NCBI GenBank assembly: GCA_943350445.1
Contig: CALRAE010000008.1
Span: 1 to 41,481, forward strand
DNA length: 41,481 nucleotides
DNA from: Candidatus Nomurabacteria bacterium
GTDB lineage: Bacteria; Patescibacteriota; Minisyncoccia; Phycocordibacterales; UBA9973
Direction of reading: 5' to 3'
Shown here: in pieces, positions 12,489-36,400 of the stretch
Numbering within the stretch: position 1 is the first letter of the stretch
Layout: each line of letters starts with the position of its first letter
Position numbers and translations under genes: made by a program
The notes under the pieces: generated by a model
The model's database searches: none
What the model saw: only the letters and a program-made list of their open reading frames with translations
What the model was told of the DNA's origin: nothing

Positions 12489-14207
12489 TTACTTAAAATA
12501 TTCAGGTGTATAGACAGACATCCAGTCAAGTAAACCACTCATAACACTAGAGGCATTTACGCTGTTTGTTTTTGGACCGGATTCCATCATTATAGTAAAA
12601 GAATATTTCGGTTTTTCATATGGGAAAAAACCAATAACCCAAGAGTTCACTCTATTTTTTAGGACTCCGATCTGAGCTGTACCAGTTTTGGCTGCCACTT
12701 GCACATAGGGTACATTTAAAGCTACTGCTGTGCCATAAGTAACTGCTTGTCGCATACCCTCATGCACTACATCAAAATATTCTTTTTTTAGATCTATTGT
12801 GGAAAATTTATTCTCCTTGTCTTTATCAGACAGCATAAAATGCGGAGTTAAAAGTTTGCCTTTGTTGGCGATAGCGGAAACAGCTCGGGTAATTTCCATT
12901 GGTGTAACTTGGAATCCATATTGTCCGATAACTGTATGATAAGTATTTCCAATACGCCAAGGGTCCCCTTTGAAATTCTTTATTTTCCACTCAGGGCTTG
13001 GAATTATCCCATTTTTTTCATCTGGTAGGTCAATCCCTGTTTTATCTTCGAAACCAAACATCTTTGCATATTTTTCTATATTCTCTATACCAAGCCCCTT
13101 CTGATCTTCAAATCCCCCACCAATTTCATAAAAGTAAATATCAGATGATACCGCTATTGCCTCTGCCATATTTGTCCAACCGTTTACCCTCCAGTCTTTA
13201 AAAACTGTTTTTTGGTCTGGAAAATAAGGATTAGGTACTGAGATAGAACCAGTTGAAAGAATTTTTTTATATTGGTCGATGACACCTTCCGTGAGTGCCC
13301 CTAAGGCAAAAAATGGTTTAACAATTGATCCTGGTGTGTAAAGCCCAGATACTGTTCTATCTAAAAATGGATTCTTTTTGTCGTTTAAATAACCGTTGAT
13401 CTTCTTTACATCTTTTCCTAAAGAAAGTATTTCTGAATCATACTCTGGGAAGCTAGTTGAAGCTATAATTTCTCCATTATTTACATTCATAATAACACCA
13501 GACCCACCAATGAAATCATTACTACGTGATAGGTCTCTAATTGAATTGAATAATTCTCTTTGAATTCTAGAATCAATTGTGGTCATTAAATCACTTCCAC
13601 GTTTCGGGATATTTATAATATTTTCTGATTGAATAACCCCTTGAGAATTAGTCTCTATAATTTTTGACCCATTCTCTCCCCGTATTTCATCATTATATTG
13701 CTTCTCAAGACCATCTTTACCAACAAAGTTGGTTTGCCAGTAATTCCCCCTGCTATCTTTTGTTGGATAACTAACATAACCAAGCACATGTGAAAATCCG
13801 GATACCATATAGCTACGAATATAAGACAGATTCTCACTAAAGACTCCACTACCTACTTCTTCCTTATCTGTCTTTTTATTCCAAGCCAACTCTTGTCCGT
13901 TTCGATCATAAATTATTCCTCTTTCGGTAAAGATGTTTATTTTCTCCAGCGTGTTGTTATCACTTCTTTGTTTATAGAAGTCTCCATTTTGTATTTGTAA
14001 ATAAACCAAGCGGGCGCTAAATATGAATGCGACTAAAATAAATGAGACTCCAAGGAAAGTAATGGTTTTTTTTGGAATTGGTTTTTCGATTCTACCCTCA
14101 AATTGTTGTCGGTCAAAATTCTCTATATTCTTTGAATCGAGAAAGATCTCATCTGGTTCAACAAAAGTATCTCGTGCCCTATTTCTTCTTAATTTTTTAA
14201 AAGTCAT
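12489..14207 (-). CDS. mrdA: Penicillin-binding protein 2 (class B transpeptidase)
   Basis: PBP2 cross-links peptidoglycan during elongation with RodA. The 572-residue protein has a cytoplasmic tail of about 50 residues, a membrane helix (about 51-70) and a pedestal domain with R-G-I-I-Y-D-R-N-G. The transpeptidase domain has S-I-V-K (nucleophile Ser near 292, after Y-T-P-G), S-S-D near 353 in the SxN/D position and K-T-G-T-A near 505. The class B PBP2 loop G-F-E-D-K-T-G-I-D-L-P is also present. The upstream MreD-like gene supports PBP2 over FtsI. rodA, mreB and mreC are not in the window. Confidence 0.9.
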   Translation of the reverse strand: MTFKKLRRNRARDTFVEPDEIFLDSKNIENFDRQQFEGRIEKPIPKKTITFLGVSFILVAFIFSARLVYLQIQNGDFYKQRSDNNTLEKINIFTERGIIYDRNGQELAWNKKTDKEEVGSGVFSENLSYIRSYMVSGFSHVLGYVSYPTKDSRGNYWQTNFVGKDGLEKQYNDEIRGENGSKIIETNSQGVIQSENIINIPKRGSDLMTTIDSRIQRELFNSIRDLSRSNDFIGGSGVIMNVNNGEIIASTSFPEYDSEILSLGKDVKKINGYLNDKKNPFLDRTVSGLYTPGSIVKPFFALGALTEGVIDQYKKILSTGSISVPNPYFPDQKTVFKDWRVNGWTNMAEAIAVSSDIYFYEIGGGFEDQKGLGIENIEKYAKMFGFEDKTGIDLPDEKNGIIPSPEWKIKNFKGDPWRIGNTYHTVIGQYGFQVTPMEITRAVSAIANKGKLLTPHFMLSDKDKENKFSTIDLKKEYFDVVHEGMRQAVTYGTAVALNVPYVQVAAKTGTAQIGVLKNRVNSWVIGFFPYEKPKYSFTIMMESGPKTNSVNASSVMSGLLDWMSVYTPEYFK

Positions 14208-14216
14208 TTGATTTAT

Positions 14217-14495
14217 TTAATGCTGTTCAAGCCGTAGTTTGTCTTTTAATAATTGGATAACAATAAAACAAACTAGTGTTACAAGGAAAGAAACGGGTGT
14301 GAAGGTTGAATCTCCACTTAGGGAAGGTCCAACCTTCACACCAAAAAGCAAGTCTGAAAGGAGAAGTAGGAAAACAGCTTCTATAAAAAACTTAAAATAA
14401 GCCATACTAGTCAAAGCTAAAATTACGGTCACCCAAAATGGCGCAAAAAATACCGAAAGTAAAAGTAAAATAGAAGCTAAGATCCTTAAAACCAT
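14217..14495 (-). CDS. Small polytopic membrane protein, possibly a reduced MreD
   Basis: The 92-residue, very hydrophobic product has three or four predicted helices. It lies 9 bases upstream of the PBP2 start on the same strand, where mreD commonly sits. L-L-L-L-S-D-L-L-F-G-V-K resembles the weakly conserved MreD core. MreD proteins are usually about 160 residues, so if it is MreD it is strongly shortened. Assignment is by position and topology only. It starts 9 bases after the purB remnant, which puts it downstream of the purine block. Confidence 0.4.
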   Translation of the reverse strand: MVLRILASILLLLSVFFAPFWVTVILALTSMAYFKFFIEAVFLLLLSDLLFGVKVGPSLSGDSTFTPVSFLVTLVCFIVIQLLKDKLRLEQH

Positions 14496-14504
14496 AAGCT
14501 TATC

Positions 14505-14915
14505 TTACCTTGAAGCGAGTCGGGACGCCAGACCTGTATAATTTTCTGGCGTTAACTTTAGAAGCTCTTTTTTTATTTTATCACTGACATCTAATTTTTC
14601 TATAAATGCCTGAATATCAGAAAGTGTAACTTCTTTACCACGGGCTAAATCTTTTAATTTTTTATAGGGCATCTCGGCTCCTTTACGACGGAGGATTGTC
14701 TGTATTGCTTCGGTGATGACTTCTGGGTGTGCCATCAAATCTTCTTTTATTTTGACCTCATTCACTTTTATTTTTCCTAACCCCTTAATTAAAGAATTAT
14801 AAGCTAAATATGAGTGCCCAAAAGCTGTGCCGAATGCACGTTCCACAGTAGAATCTGAAAGATCACGCTGAAGTCTAGAAATTGGAAGCTTGCGAGTAAA
14901 AAATTCAAATTTTCT
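14505..14915 (-). pseudogene. purB: Adenylosuccinate lyase, C-terminal remnant
   Basis: The frame is open from just after a TAA at 14916-14918 to the stop at 14505, about 136 codons. It encodes only the C-terminal helical part of PurB: F-F-T-R-K-L-P-I-S-R-L-Q-R-D-L-S-D-S-T-V (E. coli K-L-P-V-S-R-W-Q-R-D-L-T-D-S-T-V) and then A-Y-N-S-L-I-K-G-L through P-E-V-I-T-E-A-I-Q-T to the end. The homology runs up to and slightly into the 3' end of purD, while the first two thirds of PurB, including the signature loop and catalytic residues, are absent. It therefore looks like a deletion that joined purD to the inside of purB. GTG 14846 is the only obvious later start. No enzyme activity is expected. Confidence 0.8.
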
Positions 14916-16200
14916 TTATTTCTAACGCAGATTGACCTATATCTTTTCTGTATTGCATCCCTTCAAATTTAATCTTTTCAATAGCCCTATAAGCCTTCTC
15001 GAGCGCTTCTTTCATGGAGCCACCAATAGCAGAAACTCCGAGCACCCGTCCGCCATTAGTTGTTAGGTCTTGCCTAACAACTTTTGTGCCTGCGTGGAAG
15101 ATGACGACGTCAGTCTGCATTCCTGCTTCAACTATTCCAGAAATTATATTCCCTTTTTCATAAGTACCCGGATATCCACCGGAAGCGAGGGCGATATTAC
15201 AGGCAAAAGTATTTTCCTTCCATTTAATTTTTAAATCAGAAATTTTTCCATCAATGCTGGCATCCACAATGTCTAGCAGGTCAGTATCTAATAGTCTCAT
15301 ATATGTCTGAGTCTCTGGATCTCCAAAACGCGCATTAAATTCAAAAACCTTTGGGCCTTCTTTGGTGAGCATGATTCCTGGGTACAATATTCCTACAAAT
15401 GGTCTGCCTTCTTTTGCCATGCCTTCGATTGTTGGTTTAACGATTTCTTTTTCGATTTTTTTCATCATGGCACTGCCTACGAAAGGCGGTGGTGCGATCA
15501 CCCCCATCCCTCCAGTATTTGGACCCACATTTCCATCAAATATACGCTTGTGGTCTTGCGATGGAGGGAACATTTTCCAAGACTGTCCGTCAGAGATGGC
15601 ATGGGCAGAGATCTCTATCCCGTCAAGGTATTCTTCTATCACTACTTCATTACCAGCATTTCCAAAAATCTTATTTATGAGCACATCTTCGAGGGTTTTT
15701 AAGGCTTCTTCTTTAGTTTGAGCGACCGTCACACCTTTACCGAGAGCCAAGCCGCTTGCTTTGATAACTATGGGTAGTGATCCTTTTTCCACATACATCT
15801 TTGCTTTTTTGAAATCAGTAAAGACTTCGTACTTGGCGGTAGGGATGCTGTGCCTCTTCATGAAATCTTTGGCATATGCCTTAGACCATTCAAGTTCGGC
15901 GGCACCCTTTGTTGGACCCCAGATACGTAACCCTTCTACTTGAAAGGCATCTACTATACCAAGAGCTAGGGGGTCATCAGGTAAAGCCAAAGTAAGATCT
16001 ATTTTCTCTTTTTGAGCAAATTCTACTAGTTTTGCGATATCAGTAGCAGAAATAGAAACGTTTGTGCCTAATTCAAGAGTTCCAGCGTTTCCAGGCGCAA
16101 AATATAAATCTCCAGCCCGTTCATACTGAGCCACCTTCCACCCCACAGCATGTTCCCTGCCCCCACTACCAATTATTAAAATCTTTTGTTTTTGCAACAT
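14905..16200 (-). CDS. purD: Phosphoribosylamine-glycine ligase
   Basis: PurD joins phosphoribosylamine and glycine with ATP to give GAR, step 2 of purine synthesis. The 431-residue protein is full length with I-G-S-G-G-R-E-H-A near the N-terminus, the ATP-grasp central domain (V-I-K-A-S-G-L-A-L-G-K-G-V, E-E-Y-L-D-G-I-E-I-S), Q-D-H-K-R, N-T-G-G-M-G and the metal site E-F-N-A-R-F-G-D-P-E-T-Q. It starts 9 bases after purN. Its stop codon lies inside the region of purB homology. Intact by eye, although the pathway around it is not. Confidence 0.95.
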   Translation of the reverse strand: MLQKQKILIIGSGGREHAVGWKVAQYERAGDLYFAPGNAGTLELGTNVSISATDIAKLVEFAQKEKIDLTLALPDDPLALGIVDAFQVEGLRIWGPTKGAAELEWSKAYAKDFMKRHSIPTAKYEVFTDFKKAKMYVEKGSLPIVIKASGLALGKGVTVAQTKEEALKTLEDVLINKIFGNAGNEVVIEEYLDGIEISAHAISDGQSWKMFPPSQDHKRIFDGNVGPNTGGMGVIAPPPFVGSAMMKKIEKEIVKPTIEGMAKEGRPFVGILYPGIMLTKEGPKVFEFNARFGDPETQTYMRLLDTDLLDIVDASIDGKISDLKIKWKENTFACNIALASGGYPGTYEKGNIISGIVEAGMQTDVVIFHAGTKVVRQDLTTNGGRVLGVSAIGGSMKEALEKAYRAIEKIKFEGMQYRKDIGQSALEIKKI

Positions 16201-16209
16201 TATCTTAGT

Positions 16210-16872
16210 TTAGTCTAAATACACAGATGTCGCCTGTGTATTTGTTAATTTTTCTAAAACTTGCACATACATTTGATTCTCTTTTTTTTTAAGTCTACTA
16301 TATAAAGATTCAACATTGTCGTTATCTTCAACTTTTTCAAAAGTTCTTCCTAAAACTGGTCCAAAATCAAAATTTAGCGTTAAAAAATGAATTGAAGATC
16401 CGACGAAGGTGGATTTTTTGTCTAAAAAATTCTTGATGGCTTTGGTAGTGAGCATGCTTTTATTCCAGAGCGCTTGAGTTCTATCAGGATTTTTCACCGC
16501 ACCATCTGTAGTGTCTGGGATAAGTCCAGGGTGCAAATTTAAAATTTTATTTGGAAAAGCTAGAATCACTTCGTCTAAAATAATTTGTTTCCAACCAGCC
16601 AGACAAATATACAATATGTCTTTTTTTGGATTTATTTTTTGTAAAAGTGAAAGCAAGACCTCCTTCTTTGGGCATATTTCTATTTTTAGATTATGCTTTC
16701 TGGCGCGTTCTAGTCCTGGTGCGTTTTCTTTATCAGAAATGACGCCGTAAATTTCAGCATTTATTTTGCCTGATTCAACTCCATTAATAATTGCCTGAAG
16801 GTTCGTGCCTGTACCGGCATCAGAAATCAGAATTGCAATTTTAAGTTTTTTTTTGTTAGTCTTTTGGGACAT
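16210..16872 (-). CDS. purN: Phosphoribosylglycinamide formyltransferase
   Basis: PurN transfers the formyl group of 10-formyl-THF to GAR, step 3 of purine synthesis. The 220-residue protein shows S-D-A-G-T-G-T-N-L-Q-A-I near the N-terminus, the catalytic N-L-H-P-G-L-I-P (Asn and His of N-x-H-P) and S-S-I-H-F-L-T-L-N-F-D-F-G-P-V with the catalytic Asp. It has an insert after the N-x-H-P motif (P-D-T-T-D-G-A-V-K-N-P-D-R-T-Q) relative to E. coli PurN. The start overlaps purF by 17 bases, indicating translational coupling. Confidence 0.9.
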   Translation of the reverse strand: MSQKTNKKKLKIAILISDAGTGTNLQAIINGVESGKINAEIYGVISDKENAPGLERARKHNLKIEICPKKEVLLSLLQKINPKKDILYICLAGWKQIILDEVILAFPNKILNLHPGLIPDTTDGAVKNPDRTQALWNKSMLTTKAIKNFLDKKSTFVGSSIHFLTLNFDFGPVLGRTFEKVEDNDNVESLYSRLKKKENQMYVQVLEKLTNTQATSVYLD

Positions 16873-18313
16873 TGTAATTTATCTCTTTTTTTCTTTCATA
16901 AATCGAAATCGGATACACCCCATCGAAAGATGAAAGTGAGAATTTTGATTTTGGCATTCCGGTCGCTGCCACCATACCCTCAATAGATAAATAAGACAAG
17001 GAAGTCGCCCCAAGAAAATCTCGTATCTGTACCATTGTTTTATGTGAAGCAATTAGCTCAGACTGATTTGGAGTATCAATTCCATAAAAATCAGGAAACT
17101 TGATCGGGGCAGAACTAACCAAGAAATGTACTTCTTTGGCTCCAGCTTCAAAAAGCATCTTTACTATTTGCTTACTGGTTGTGCCGCGGATAATAGAATC
17201 ATCCATGACTCCTATTTTTTTACCCTTGATAACACTCTCGAGTGGGCTCAATTTCATCCTAACTTTTTCTGCCCTCAATTCTTGGGTAGGTTCGATAAAT
17301 GTACGGTTGATGTAACGATTTTTTGCAATTCCCATCTCAAATGGAATACCGGATTCTTCTGCATAGCCTATGGCAGCTGAGATGGCTGATTCTGGCACAG
17401 GAATAATAATATCTATCTCGTTTACTCCATTTCGATGATGTTTTCTGTTTTCCCGAGCGAGCATACGCCCTAGATTCTTTCTGACTTCGTATACAGATTT
17501 CTTTAACATGACACTGTCGTAACGTGCAAAATAGACGAATTCAAAAATATCAAACTTTGGCTTTGGTTTAGCTATTTTCTTACTACTTATGACTATTTTC
17601 TTGCCTACTTTCTTAATAATCACCATCTCTCCAGGCTCTATCTCTCTTATAAATTTAGCCCCTAGAGTATCTAGAGCGCATGTTTCAGAACAGATGATTA
17701 CTTCATCACCCCTTTTACCCAAAACAAGTGGACGAATACCACAAGCATCCCTAAAGCCAACCATTATATTTAACCCAAGTGCCACACAAGAAAATGCTCC
17801 AGTAAACAAAGGATACGCTTTAATTACAGCATCCGAAAGTGAACTTCCCTTTTTCATATAAACGGCGATAGCCAGAGTCATGAGCTGTGAGTCAGACATG
17901 TCCTTGGTTATCTCATTATTCTTTTTTAAAAAATTAACTATTTTAGTAGTACTTGGCAGGTTGCCATTGTGACCCAAAGCAAAAAGATTGTCATATAAAA
18001 ACGGTTGGGCATATTCAACGTTATTCCCACTCGATGTGGAGTAACGATTGTGACCAATCGCTGCGAACCCAGGGAGTTTTTTTAAAATATCTTCAGTATA
18101 AATTTGGCTAACTAGACCTCCATCTTTATATAAACGAAGCTTGGTACCATCAGTGGTCGCAATGCCTGAATGTTCTTGCCCGCGGTGTTGTAAGGCAAAT
18201 AATCCAAAGTATGTCTCTCGGGCGGTTTTATTTATGCCCTCAGTTCCCGCAGAATCACCATTTCCAAAAATCCCAAAGACCGCACACTTTTCATTTAAAT
18301 CTTTATCGTTCAT
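16856..18313 (-). CDS. purF: Amidophosphoribosyltransferase
   Basis: PurF commits PRPP to purine synthesis. The 485-residue protein carries the Ntn-type glutaminase nucleophile C10 (K-C-A-V-F-G-I-F-G), implying removal of a nine-residue propeptide. Glutaminase residues R-G-Q-E-H-S-G-I and the G-H-N-G-N-L loop follow. The phosphoribosyltransferase PRPP loop G-V-M-D-D-S-I-I-R-G-T-T-S lies near 366. There is no obvious Fe-S Cys set. The gene looks intact. It lies 15 bases after the purQ remnant and overlaps purN. TATAAT lies directly against its ATG, too close to serve this start. Confidence 0.93.
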   Translation of the reverse strand: MNDKDLNEKCAVFGIFGNGDSAGTEGINKTARETYFGLFALQHRGQEHSGIATTDGTKLRLYKDGGLVSQIYTEDILKKLPGFAAIGHNRYSTSSGNNVEYAQPFLYDNLFALGHNGNLPSTTKIVNFLKKNNEITKDMSDSQLMTLAIAVYMKKGSSLSDAVIKAYPLFTGAFSCVALGLNIMVGFRDACGIRPLVLGKRGDEVIICSETCALDTLGAKFIREIEPGEMVIIKKVGKKIVISSKKIAKPKPKFDIFEFVYFARYDSVMLKKSVYEVRKNLGRMLARENRKHHRNGVNEIDIIIPVPESAISAAIGYAEESGIPFEMGIAKNRYINRTFIEPTQELRAEKVRMKLSPLESVIKGKKIGVMDDSIIRGTTSKQIVKMLFEAGAKEVHFLVSSAPIKFPDFYGIDTPNQSELIASHKTMVQIRDFLGATSLSYLSIEGMVAATGMPKSKFSLSSFDGVYPISIYERKKEINYNVPKD

Positions 18314-18326
18314 ATTATAAAAAAAT

Positions 18327-18402
18327 AATTAGTACAAAGTTTTCGCCTGCGAGGACTGTCTGAGCGAAGCGAGTTCCGTATCCAGAAAATTTTGTACTAA
18401 TT
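18327..18402. repeat. Palindromic insert at the 3' end of the purQ remnant
   Basis: The 17-base arms AATTAGTACAAAGTTTT (18327-18343) and AAAATTTTGTACTAATT (18386-18402) pair at 16 of 17 positions, the exception being a G-T wobble. The 42-base loop contains GAGGACTGTC and GAGCGAAGCGAG. The element provides the stop codon of the remnant and ends 13 bases before the purF start, so it could also act as an intra-operon hairpin. Confidence 0.7.
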
Positions 18403-18754
18403 GTTTTTTAAAGTAATTAATCGCGTTTTTAAAAATCTGTAATCCTGCTCTTTTTTTAGAAAACTTCTTATTCATCTGCCACAACGGACTCTGGTGAGAA
18501 AACATCGCTCTCTCTGGGTGTGGCATCATCCCTAAGACCCTCCCATTATATGCCAAAACACCCGCAATGTCATGGTCTGAACCGTTAGGATTGTGTTCTA
18601 AATTTTGATACTTGGTTATAGCACCTTTTGTATACTTAAAAGCTATTTCTTTATCTTTACTCATCTTAGAGTATTCTTTTTTGGAAATTACATAGCGTCC
18701 TTCGCCGTGCGCTATCGGTAGGGATATCTTTTTAATACCCTTGAGCCAATTTTT
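18329..18754 (-). pseudogene. purQ: FGAM synthase glutaminase subunit (PurQ / PurL C-terminus), C-terminal remnant
   Basis: The frame is open from just after a TAG at 18755-18757 to the stop at 18329, about 141 codons. It contains the end of a PurQ-type class I glutamine amidotransferase: L-P-I-A-H-G-E-G-R-Y-V, then N-P-N-G-S-D-H-D-I-A-G-V and V-L-G-M-M-P-H-P-E-R-A-M, with the catalytic His and Glu of P-H-P-E. The nucleophile Cys half is missing. The last ~25 codons and the stop are supplied by a palindromic insert (18327-18402). An ATG at 18664 would start only 111 residues. No purL, purM or other partner is nearby. Remnant status is inferred from missing domains. Confidence 0.75.
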
Positions 18755-18968
18755 CTAGTTATTTTTTGGAAAAATTAGAATAAATAAGGTAAGAATCTAT
18801 CTGCTTAGCCCCACCCTTTAGCATCACATAGATCCGTGAAATCATATAGACCTATTATATTATATGGTTACTAAAGACAAATACGGTCTTCTGTGTTGCT
18901 TTTTATCTTATTTATGTTACTATTATGGCGAATTTCATTGTTCTCCGAAACATTCTCACCATCACAAA

Positions 18969-19517
18969 ATGACACCTTACTTAAATCTGTCGAGCTTTGC
19001 TGGTGGTGGTAAAACCACTGTCGCAAAGTTGCTAATTGCAAATTACAGTTGCGTTGTGATTCCAAAAATCACGACACGATCCCGTCGCAAGACGGAAGAA
19101 ATTCCAGAATACATTTATGTATCTCAGGAGGAATTTGTATATCGAGAGAGAAAAGGACATTTCCTCTCAGTAACTAGAAATGGTGACTTCTTTCACGCCA
19201 TTCCCTGTATAGAATACTGGCCAGTAGTCCCTGCTGGCACAGAGCTGATTCTGTCCTTATTTGGATCAGAATCCAGAATTGTGCAGAGGCAAGTTCCACA
19301 TATGAAGCTTTGTTTTATTAGTTGCCGAAACAAACACCTACTCTATGAGAGGTTGCTCCACCGATGTGAAATCGATGGTGGCAACTTTAAAGAAAAGTGG
19401 GTAAAAAATGAAAGATACTTTGCTACAGCCATTGAAGATCAATACGACTTCGTGGTTTATAATGACACAACTCCAGAGGAATGTGTCGAACAAATAAGAA
19501 AACTCATCAAACGCTGA
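18969..19517 (+). CDS. P-loop kinase of the guanylate-kinase-like type
   Basis: From ATG 18969 the product is 182 residues with an N-terminal P-loop S-F-A-G-G-G-K-T-T. A guanylate-kinase-like segment follows, P-K-I-T-T-R-S-R-R-K-T-E-E-I-P-E-Y-I-Y-V-S (compare T-T-R-x-P-R-x-G-E-x-x-G-x-x-Y-x-F-V-S in GMP kinase). The lid region and C-terminal helices look degenerate relative to Gmk, so the substrate may not be GMP. The frame continues up to ATG 18864, and a TATTAT lies 5 bases before that codon. The extra 35 residues, Cys/Tyr/His-rich, do not look like a conserved domain. Codon use looks richer in G/C than its neighbours, so recent transfer is possible. Confidence 0.55.
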   Translation: MTPYLNLSSFAGGGKTTVAKLLIANYSCVVIPKITTRSRRKTEEIPEYIYVSQEEFVYRERKGHFLSVTRNGDFFHAIPCIEYWPVVPAGTELILSLFGSESRIVQRQVPHMKLCFISCRNKHLLYERLLHRCEIDGGNFKEKWVKNERYFATAIEDQYDFVVYNDTTPEECVEQIRKLIKR

Positions 19518-19604: not shown

Positions 19605-20165
19605 TTATATATTTTTTAGATAGTTCAAGACGTGTGGCAACTCATGGGTTGGTACAAATCGATGGAATAAAGACATATCCTCCTTTTTTAGATTTGATAA
19701 AAATTCAAAAGAAAATTTATTAAAACCATCAGTTTCTTTAGGATCTGCTTTTATTTCTACTTCAGTTATTGATTTTTTGTAAATATATACTGATCTAGTA
19801 AAATTATTTATTTTTGCTCTATGTTTATGCTCTGAAAGACCTCGAAATTTAATAAGCAAGCATAGATCCTCTGGGGATACAGAAATTCCTGATTCTTCTT
19901 TTGTCTCTCGAACGGCTGCAGTAATATAATCTTCATCTTTATCTACATGACCTCCTATAGATGCATCAAACAAGCCTGCTGATGATTTATGTGCAGCACT
20001 TTTTGGAAAATATAAATTTTTATCTTTATCGAAAAGCCAAACATGCACTTCGCGGTGTAGTAAACCCAATTGATGTATCTCAGATCGCAGTCTCGACTCT
20101 ATGACCACATCTTCTTCGTTTACCACATCAAGAAATTCTTTATTTTCGGAATTTAAATTAATCAT
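19605..20165 (-). CDS. Nudix hydrolase, IPP-isomerase-like subgroup
   Basis: The 186-residue protein has a complete Nudix box: G-H-V-D-K-D-E then seven residues and R-E-T-K-E-E-S-G-I (GX5EX7REUXEEXGU), near residues 72-94. H-R-E-V-H-V-W-L-F near the N-terminus is like the IDI/YfcD-type Nudix proteins. These hydrolyse nucleoside diphosphate derivatives or isomerise IPP; this one lacks enough evidence for either. TATAAT (20174-20179, minus strand) ends 8 bases before the start codon. Confidence 0.8.
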   Translation of the reverse strand: MINLNSENKEFLDVVNEEDVVIESRLRSEIHQLGLLHREVHVWLFDKDKNLYFPKSAAHKSSAGLFDASIGGHVDKDEDYITAAVRETKEESGISVSPEDLCLLIKFRGLSEHKHRAKINNFTRSVYIYKKSITEVEIKADPKETDGFNKFSFEFLSNLKKEDMSLFHRFVPTHELPHVLNYLKNI

Positions 20166-20234: not shown

Positions 20235-20777
20235 ATGAAGTTTATTTTTGATTTTGATGATGTGTTGTTCCACAGCACTCCAAGATTTAAAGAGCACTTG
20301 CGAGTTTCTTTAGAAAAAGCGGGTATTCCTCGCATGGAAGTAGAAAAATACACTGAAAGCCTTAAAGGTAAAGGTTTTTCACTGAAAGAATTTTTAAACA
20401 AGTTTTCTGTGAATTTGGATTGGTATGAAGAAATACTTAGAAATAGCGAGGAATTTATAAATCAGGATTTATTTAAAATAATAAGAAAACTCGGGCGGAA
20501 AAATTGCTACATTGTAAGTTATGGCAATGAAGAATTTCAATTAGATAAAATAAAGAAAGCTGGCATTGAAGCGTTTTTTTTAGAAATTATTGTGGTACCT
20601 GAAAGTAAAAAGGGGGAGATAGAAAAAATATGTGCTAAACATAAAGATGAACAAGTTATATTTATTGATGATAAGATCAAAAATCTTGAAAACTTAGACC
20701 TGAAAAAATATCCAAATCTAAAAACTATTCTATACGATGAACAAGGTCTTGAGAAATTTAAATCTATTTTATTATAG
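20235..20777 (+). CDS. HAD-superfamily hydrolase
   Basis: The 180-residue protein begins M-K-F-I-F-D-F-D-D-V with the nucleophile D6 and D8 of motif I. A Ser in V-S-Y-G-N (motif II position) follows, then a Lys in E-S-K-K-G and F-I-D-D-K (motif IV) near 140. A helical cap of about 75 residues is inserted after motif I. Substrate is unknown. The 3' end overlaps the DUF2914 gene by 14 bases (convergent). Confidence 0.75.
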   Translation: MKFIFDFDDVLFHSTPRFKEHLRVSLEKAGIPRMEVEKYTESLKGKGFSLKEFLNKFSVNLDWYEEILRNSEEFINQDLFKIIRKLGRKNCYIVSYGNEEFQLDKIKKAGIEAFFLEIIVVPESKKGEIEKICAKHKDEQVIFIDDKIKNLENLDLKKYPNLKTILYDEQGLEKFKSILL

Positions 20778-21849
20778 TCTTAAGAATGGGATCAAAATCA
20801 ACTAGAATAACATTAAATCTTAAACGTCCAATGATTTGCCCTGATTCTGTTTTGATATTTACTCGCCATCTACCAGGTGCTAAATCTGAACGGGTGGAAT
20901 AGGTCCGGAATCCTCCGTCTCGTCCACCGATGACCGGTAAGTTGACGAGACGCTCTGTCTTCCATTCTTCTGATACCTCATTTAAATGTTGCCACTCATG
21001 GACAATGCTAATGTTTAAATTTTTTGGAGAGAAAATAGCACTAAATGCGTAAACGGATTTCCCGACCACATGCTTAAAGTCAGGATAGGGATTGAAATAA
21101 TTACCCCAACCATGGTCTTCATAAGTAACCTTATAGTTTTCATTTTCTCTTTGCATCGAGTGATAAACACCGGCGTCTTTTAGTGATAGAGGTATTGGTG
21201 GAATCAGATTGTTGAAATATAGAAAATTTACCAAAAGTAAGACGCTTAAGATAAGGAAAAACACCAGCCTTTTACTTTTATCAAATTTATCTTTATTAAA
21301 ATAAAATAAAATTTTTATAAAAATTCTTATCGCAATCAGACTAACCACCCCAGAAAGTATGAAAACCCATGACCCTATTTTATGAAGTAAAACTGGAACC
21401 AGAAAGATAGCAAACCAATAAATCGAAAGAAAGAATAAGCTAATTTGGAAACTAAGCCTCACATAGTGCTTTTTTAGGAATTCATTTGCGATAAAAATAA
21501 GAGCAAGTAGAGCTATAAATGGCCATGCCACCATAATATCTGCACTTCTAAAATAGAGAATTAAATAAGCTGAAAATATTCCTCCGAAGGCAAACTGTAA
21601 GATGTTTACATACCAAAAATGAGCCTTGCTTGGATCCCTCTCATCACCCTCCTCACTATGCTTTGTGTGAGTCAGAATAATGAAAATACCAATCAAAATT
21701 AAGTAAGCTATAATCCAGAGATTTTCCCAAAGCGCATCTACACGTTTTAAAGTGAAAGCATCAAAAATAAACCCTCCTACAAGAAAGAGGGATGAAATAC
21801 GGTGTTCAAAACGACCATAAAATTTTTGAAGTGAGCTTATTAAAAACAT
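20764..21849 (-). CDS. Polytopic membrane protein with C-terminal DUF2914 domain
   Basis: The 361-residue protein has about eight membrane helices in its first 225 residues. The soluble C-terminal domain ends in G-G-R-D-G-G-F-R-T-Y-S-T-R-S-D-L-A-P-G-R-W-R-V-N-I, matching the DUF2914 pattern (G-G-x-x-G-x-R-T-x-S-x-K ... G-x-W-R-V). DUF2914 has no known function; the soluble part probably lies outside the membrane. Extended -10 TGC-TATAAT (21856-21861, minus strand) ends 6 bases before the ATG. Confidence 0.7.
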   Translation of the reverse strand: MFLISSLQKFYGRFEHRISSLFLVGGFIFDAFTLKRVDALWENLWIIAYLILIGIFIILTHTKHSEEGDERDPSKAHFWYVNILQFAFGGIFSAYLILYFRSADIMVAWPFIALLALIFIANEFLKKHYVRLSFQISLFFLSIYWFAIFLVPVLLHKIGSWVFILSGVVSLIAIRIFIKILFYFNKDKFDKSKRLVFFLILSVLLLVNFLYFNNLIPPIPLSLKDAGVYHSMQRENENYKVTYEDHGWGNYFNPYPDFKHVVGKSVYAFSAIFSPKNLNISIVHEWQHLNEVSEEWKTERLVNLPVIGGRDGGFRTYSTRSDLAPGRWRVNIKTESGQIIGRLRFNVILVDFDPILKTIIK

Positions 21850-34873: not shown

Positions 34874-36400
34874 ATGAAAAAAAAGGTTACAAGTGAGCAA
34901 GAAAAGATAGGGTTTTTTATAAAGGAATTACGTGAACATCGCGGAATGACTCAGGAAGATTTCGCGCGTGAGCTTAACACCTCTCAAAGTTCTATCCCCC
35001 GCATTGAGAAAGGAGAGCAGAACCTAACCACAGAATTATTGTCTAAGATTGGCAATGTTTTAAATCATAAAATAGTCTCTATCAATGATTCTATTGATTT
35101 TAAAGTGAATGGAGGTAAAAAGTTGAGCGGTACAATCAAGACTAATTTCTCTAAAAACGGTTCTGTCGGGCTTTTGTGCGCTTCCCTCTTAAATAGTGGC
35201 ACAACTACACTTCATGGTATTGCACGCATTGAAGAAGTTTATAGGGTAATAGAAATTCTTGAAAGTATTGGAGTCACCATTAAGTGGATAGACCAAAATT
35301 CTATAAAAATAACTCCACCCGAAAATTTTAATCTAAGTAAGATAAATGTAGAATCAGCCATTAAAACTCGTTCTATTGTTATGTTAATGGGTCCACTTAT
35401 ACACAAACTTAAATCTTTCTCTATCCCCCATGCTTATGGATGCAACCTAGGTAAAAGAACTATTTCTGCGCATCTTTATTCTCTTTTAGAACTTGGTGTC
35501 AAAATAAAAACAACCAATAAAAGTTATGATGTAAGCTCAAGTAAACTTAAGACTGGTCAAAATATTGTAATGTATGAAACTGGAGAAACGGCTTGCGAGA
35601 ATATTTTATTTGCCGCAGCTTTAATTCCAGGAACTACAACAATCAGCTTCATGAGTAATAATTACATGGTTCAAGAAATATGCTTCTTTTTGGAAATACT
35701 TGGTGTTAAAATTGATGGTATTGGGACTTCTACCCTAGTTGTGCACGGTATAAATAAAATAAATCAGGATGTTGAATATACAAACAGTGAAGACCCCATC
35801 GAATCAATGATGTTTATTTCTGCTGGAATATTAACAGACTCAAACATTACCATTAGCCGTTCCCCGATTGATTTCCTTGCTCTTGAGCTCGAAAAAATGA
35901 AGCGAATGGGTCTAAAATATAAAATATTGAAAAAATACTATTCATACAACGGTAGAACAAAGCTGGCCGATATCGAAATATTCCCAAGCAAGCTAAAAGC
36001 TTTACAAGATAAAATCCACGCAAATATTTACCCTGGAATAAATATAGATAATCTTCCATTCTTTGTACCTATAGCAATACGTGCAAAAGGTCAAACCATG
36101 ATTCATGACTGGTACTATGAGAACAGAGCCATATATCTAACAGAATTAAATCGTCTAGGAGCAGATATAACCCTTGCTGATCCACATAGACTCTATATCC
36201 AAGGTGGAACAGTTCTAAAACCCGCACAGGTCGTCTGCCCACCAGCACTACGACCATCTATGGTCATCCTTATCTCCATGCTTGGAGCAAGTGGTACTTC
36301 TATTCTACGAAACGTCTACATGATCAATCGTGGATATGAAGAAATAGCGCAACGTCTGAATTCTATTGGAGCTGATATTAAAATAATTAAGGGAAACTAA
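34874..36400 (+). CDS. XRE helix-turn-helix fused to UDP-GlcNAc enolpyruvyl transferase (MurA-like)
   Basis: The 508-residue protein begins with an XRE-type HTH (about 10-65; I-K-E-L-R-E-H-R-G-M-T-Q-E-D-F-A, T-S-Q-S-S-I-P-R-I-E-K-G-E-Q). An EPSP-synthase-fold domain follows from about 70 onward. MurA-type residues remain: K94-N95 of the S/A-K-N motif, C190 in Y-G-C-N-L-G-K-R-T (equivalent of the PEP-binding Cys115), D in Y-P-G-I-N-I-D-N, E-N-R and the Arg of A-L-R-P-S. So enolpyruvyl transfer to UDP-GlcNAc, the first committed wall step, is plausible. The fusion could let the enzyme act as its own transcription regulator. Whether it is the only MurA of the genome is unknown. Confidence 0.82.
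   Translation: MKKKVTSEQEKIGFFIKELREHRGMTQEDFARELNTSQSSIPRIEKGEQNLTTELLSKIGNVLNHKIVSINDSIDFKVNGGKKLSGTIKTNFSKNGSVGLLCASLLNSGTTTLHGIARIEEVYRVIEILESIGVTIKWIDQNSIKITPPENFNLSKINVESAIKTRSIVMLMGPLIHKLKSFSIPHAYGCNLGKRTISAHLYSLLELGVKIKTTNKSYDVSSSKLKTGQNIVMYETGETACENILFAAALIPGTTTISFMSNNYMVQEICFFLEILGVKIDGIGTSTLVVHGINKINQDVEYTNSEDPIESMMFISAGILTDSNITISRSPIDFLALELEKMKRMGLKYKILKKYYSYNGRTKLADIEIFPSKLKALQDKIHANIYPGINIDNLPFFVPIAIRAKGQTMIHDWYYENRAIYLTELNRLGADITLADPHRLYIQGGTVLKPAQVVCPPALRPSMVILISMLGASGTSILRNVYMINRGYEEIAQRLNSIGADIKIIKGN

Follow-up and report, generated by a model that had tools for sequence, protein, structure and literature searches.

In a Candidatus Nomurabacteria genome, three complete genes of purine synthesis stand between pieces of other purine genes, and we asked whether this is an operon that was lost only recently or a residue that is kept for a reason of its own. 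The locus lies in a stretch of 41,481 nucleotides, called the window here. The first-pass annotation had described an operon in decay, with the order purQ'-purF-purN-purD-purB' at 14505-18754, and had left open both of those options. Family matches confirm that gene order, and its coordinates are right (Table 1). Most comparisons below are to a relative with an intact cluster, Ca. Nomurabacteria isolate Ike-100m-2 (CALQYS010000001.1; G008); other genomes and loci are cited by our own G and L numbers.

Table 1. Features of the purine locus in the window.
Feature	Positions	Strand	Evidence or remark
mreD-like gene and PBP2	12489..14495	-	immediate downstream neighbors of purB, as also in several relatives
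purB stump, C-terminal part of PurB	14505..14912	-	PF08328 5.8e-45; NF006764 322-453/456, 2.5e-50
purD, GAR synthetase, complete	14905..16200	-	431 aa; TIGR00877 2.3e-155
Join of deletion B, last purD codons to purB codon ~326	14909..14922	-	
purN, GAR formyltransferase, complete	16210..16872	-	220 aa; TIGR00639 1.3e-30; 81% to G008
purF, amidophosphoribosyltransferase, complete	16856..18313	-	485 aa; TIGR01134 2.3e-123; 83% to G008
Hairpin then T-run, between purQ stump and purF	18328..18402	-	z = -4.4; single copy in genome
purQ stump, C-terminal part of PurQ	18407..18748	-	G008 codons 155-275
Join of deletion A, purL codon ~46 to purQ codon ~154	18738..18750	-	short TGGCTC match
purL stump, start codon and first ~35 codons	18738..18845	-	tblastn with G008 PurL 7e-8; alignment
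purL upstream region	18846..18895	-	alignment with G005, G010, G018, G052

The purQ and purB pieces are, by their family matches, true C-terminal stumps, far above chance. The purQ stump covers only positions 133-224 of the 228 in TIGR01737 (1.3e-24) and the GICNG cysteine region is gone, which agrees with the annotated loss of the nucleophile half; its open frame extends to 18329. We considered that it might be the tail of a fused PurL-PurQ, and this is out because purQ of the relatives is a separate gene of ~260-275 codons. The purB stump is the ASL_C domain alone and is without the catalytic two thirds, as had been stated. Its homology starts at ~14909, adjoining the end of the purD homology at 14922-14923. 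It had been observed that PurB homology begins inside the end of purD, and it does appear so, because the final residues of purD (EIKKI) and its stop codon are supplied by the junction of deletion B.

Two things have to be added to that first account: a stump of purL and, at another place in the genome, a PRPP synthetase gene that is broken. The purL stump was located at 18845-18741 by searching the window with the genes of the relative. It has an ATG at 18845, reads MISRIYVM...FSKK-stop-LEKLAQG and leads directly into the purQ stump; alignment with relatives places the nonsense codon right after FSKK. On the 5' side of the start, TTTGTCTTT-like and TATA-like blocks are common to the purL upstream regions of several relatives. 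This segment is probably the native promoter of the operon, still retained. A divergent guanylate-kinase-like gene (18864-19517) and a NUDIX gene (19605-20165) adjoin the purL stump, and neither was seen at the corresponding place in G008 or G052. At 34874-36400, the window also encodes an EPSP-synthase/MurA-type enzyme with a fused N-terminal helix-turn-helix domain.

The whole cluster exists in the same chromosomal place in G008, with all of its genes complete. The order there is rplI, S41 protease, PBP2, mreD, purB, purC, purM, purE, purH, guaA, then guaB and purA on the opposite strand, purD, purN, purF, purQ, two unknown genes, purL and, later, dnaX. The window shares this order and the flanks, with rplI, the S41 protease, PBP2 and mreD on one side and dnaX on the other, at protein identities of 79-88% (83% for PurF). 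It is unlike G008 in that purL, purQ and purB are reduced to stumps, truncated and ordered as in the intact operon, and in that purE, purM, purC, purH, guaA, guaB and purA are gone. The same order is found in simpler or split versions in G010, G052, G014, G037 and G048. In G018 (L098 and L099), purL and purB are each interrupted by a contig end, and these apparent losses may be assembly gaps; a C-terminal purB piece in that genome, considered as a second example of a stump, was discarded since it sits at a contig end. Genes of one family of cysteine-rich proteins (~560-590 aa) recur in purine clusters of this genus, in many cases separating purL from purQ or following purB (L052 3853-7235, L053, L059, L066, L067, L069, L104, L105 and others). 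Its members have weak matches to treble-clef zinc fingers at the protein ends.

Comparison with these layouts places two deletions with locatable joins. At the join of deletion A, the TGGCTC occurs at both deletion ends in G008. The deletion measures 6.7 kb on the G008 layout and 3.2 kb on the G052 layout, and deletion B measures 11.7 kb on the G008 layout and about 3.8 kb on that of G010. A third deletion, between purN and purD (G008 gene x249), was dropped because that gene is missing in most relatives. Between the two joins, a profile search of the window finds PurF, PurD and PurN of the IMP pathway all whole, with not one disabling mutation in more than 1,100 codons; the PurN score on TIGR00639 falls under the curated cut-off.

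The rest of the genome does not supply the missing genes either. The source genome is a metagenome-type assembly of 617 kb in 15 contigs, estimated at 99.6% complete, and the genome-wide family searches took in AIRS, PurH, PurB, PurC, PurE, PurA, GuaB and GuaA. They returned no match in it to the AIRS domain of PurL and PurM, to which 14 of 14 control genomes were positive and which matched above cut-off in 42 of the 100 genomes searched, the source genome included. Neither PurH nor PurC, PurE, PurA, GuaB or GuaA was found in these searches, and for PurB they gave the stump and one negligible match, with no complete copy. The deleted DNA has matches of chance length at most elsewhere in the source genome. 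The searches that were blank here recovered these purine genes in relatives or control genomes. With the genes absent throughout the genome, a close relative having the complete cluster at this location, and the stumps too fresh for relaxed selection to register (see below), the description of an operon in decay stands.

PurF would need PRPP. The sole match to PRPP synthetase (Pribosyltran_N) in the genome is on another contig (C5, ~20321-21011; L116 and L142), where prs differs from the undamaged G008 gene by a TAG and a frameshift. This fits a genome that is abandoning nucleotide synthesis. It is not decisive, because a PF13793 match is also absent from G003, G010, G037 and G052, which have purine pathway genes. 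FolD is encoded in the source genome, so the cofactor of PurN may be available.

Selection was measured as omega under an MG94 codon model with four taxa, in our own implementation; fits for the purQ stump alone and for purD were among the poorly determined ones, hence the use of pooled values. With the purB and purQ stumps pooled, the two-ratio fit gave a branch omega of 0.07 (95% about 0.05-0.15) against a background of 0.085, and the three-ratio fit gave 0.124 (0.07-0.40). Relaxed selection in these stumps was not significant in either fit. For purF, purN and purD together, the branch omega was 0.049, and single control genes ranged from 0.02 to 0.08. Where the relatives have an invariant column, departures from it are about equally frequent in the stumps and in the intact genes. 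The stumps are hardly able to yield enzymes, so their apparent constraint must predate the deletions, which on this scale are then recent. By the same argument, the constraint seen in purF, purN and purD does not show that they are needed at present. The comparison of dN/dS with relatives that the first-pass annotation had proposed does give a low value for the trio; the stumps being similar, it does not discriminate, and we gave up dN/dS alone as a means of separating recent loss from retention.

Recent reductive loss of a single de novo purine operon is the best explanation, and we consider it quite probable. It is favored by the full cluster of G008 with its shared flanks, the locatable joins, the genome-wide absences, the broken prs, the unrelaxed stumps and the nonsense codon in the purL stump. 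On this reading, the operon, of the order purL-purQ-purF-purN-purD-...-purM-purC-purB in a Nomurabacteria-like CPR bacterium, stopped functioning only a short time ago. Two deletions within it took everything between codon ~46 of purL and codon ~154 of purQ, and between the end of purD and codon ~326 of purB, leaving the promoter-side end, the end of purB adjoining mreD-PBP2 and the central purF-purN-purD. IMP, AMP and GMP would then no longer be made by this route, and purines would be needed from outside. The trio would be a passenger, intact mainly since too little time has elapsed. Of the two options in the first-pass annotation, recent loss is the favored one.

The surroundings of the deletions bear on how the remaining genes may be transcribed. 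The hairpin before purF is absent from G008, G010 and G052, and it has no Rfam match. The idea that it is a dispersed repeat is out, its core being single-copy in the genome. The hairpin with its U-run may lower transcription of purF-purN-purD. The purB stump ends about 10 bases short of mreD-PBP2. Deletions that spare both ends of the operon may have been tolerated because its transcription may continue into the two cell-wall genes.

The strongest alternative is that purF-purN-purD is under selection, either for PRA, GAR or FGAR as products short of IMP or for a side activity, and that the deletions trimmed only what was useless; the side activities meant are glutamine hydrolysis by PurF and one-carbon release by PurN, and we regard either version as rather unlikely. 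What speaks for it is that none of the three genes is damaged and that their omega is low, that the purL upstream region is still there and that FolD is present. Then there are other genomes. A genus mate, G058, seems to keep the identical trio, and AIRS, PurB, PurH, PurC, PurE, PurA, GuaA and GuaB were not found in it. It differs from the window in that its trio lies elsewhere, beside a D-Ala-D-Ala ligase gene, with another PurN type and with no stumps seen. G067 and G075, from other families, have a complete PurF without AIRS and without a full-score PurD, and an orphan use of PurF in CPR bacteria is possible on this pattern. The lack of damage in the trio, which evolves as control genes do, counts against recent loss, and so do the G058 trio and these PurF genes. 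In a wider form, the trio would be a selected residue in some CPR bacteria, for an unknown use or for exchange with a host, kept independently here and in G058; this too we think doubtful. Against the idea stand the stumps, which cannot be enzymes and show equally low omega from constraint that predates the deletions, the breakage of the only recognizable PRPP synthetase, and the hairpin and T-run newly arisen before purF. The G058 contig also stops within purD, and therefore its remaining purine genes could be unassembled. Retention for another purpose, the second option of the first-pass annotation, thus finds no direct support here and keeps a small share of the probability. Complete PurF genes outside any purine cluster were observed at L096 9896-11464, L102 8373-9764 and L103 10636-12066.

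It is very unlikely that the joins are chimeric, produced by assembly or strain mixing, and that living cells carry the whole operon. The metagenome-type assembly in 15 contigs would allow it. However, there are two separate joins, both inside homologous genes whose order is syntenic, a nonsense codon also interrupts the purL stump, prs is broken twice on a different contig, and the deleted genes are missing from the entire assembly. It is hardly credible that the stumps come from duplicated genes of which whole copies exist elsewhere in the genome, since queries by family (AIRS, PurB, PurH, PurC, PurE, PurA, GuaB and GuaA), by DNA and by a concatenated protein gave no complete copies in the source genome and did give them in relatives or control genomes.

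Recent loss of the operon also has a known setting. CPR bacteria have been reported to have incomplete purine pathways (PMC11974145), and like those bacteria, the source genome is reduced and without complete purine synthesis. It is unlike them in that the deletions themselves and the remnants are readable. The literature we found makes general statements on incomplete purine pathways in CPR bacteria and none on the present arrangement. The locus shows a process already known, pathway loss, in good resolution; as a snapshot it is clear but ordinary. Its value is that the patchy purine pathways of CPR bacteria are usually known merely as absences, and here the event of loss can be read in two deletions with locatable joins, in-frame stumps, the nonsense codon that interrupts purL and the damage to the PRPP synthetase gene. 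That non-functional stumps look as constrained as working genes is a warning against taking low dN/dS of the surviving genes as proof of function.
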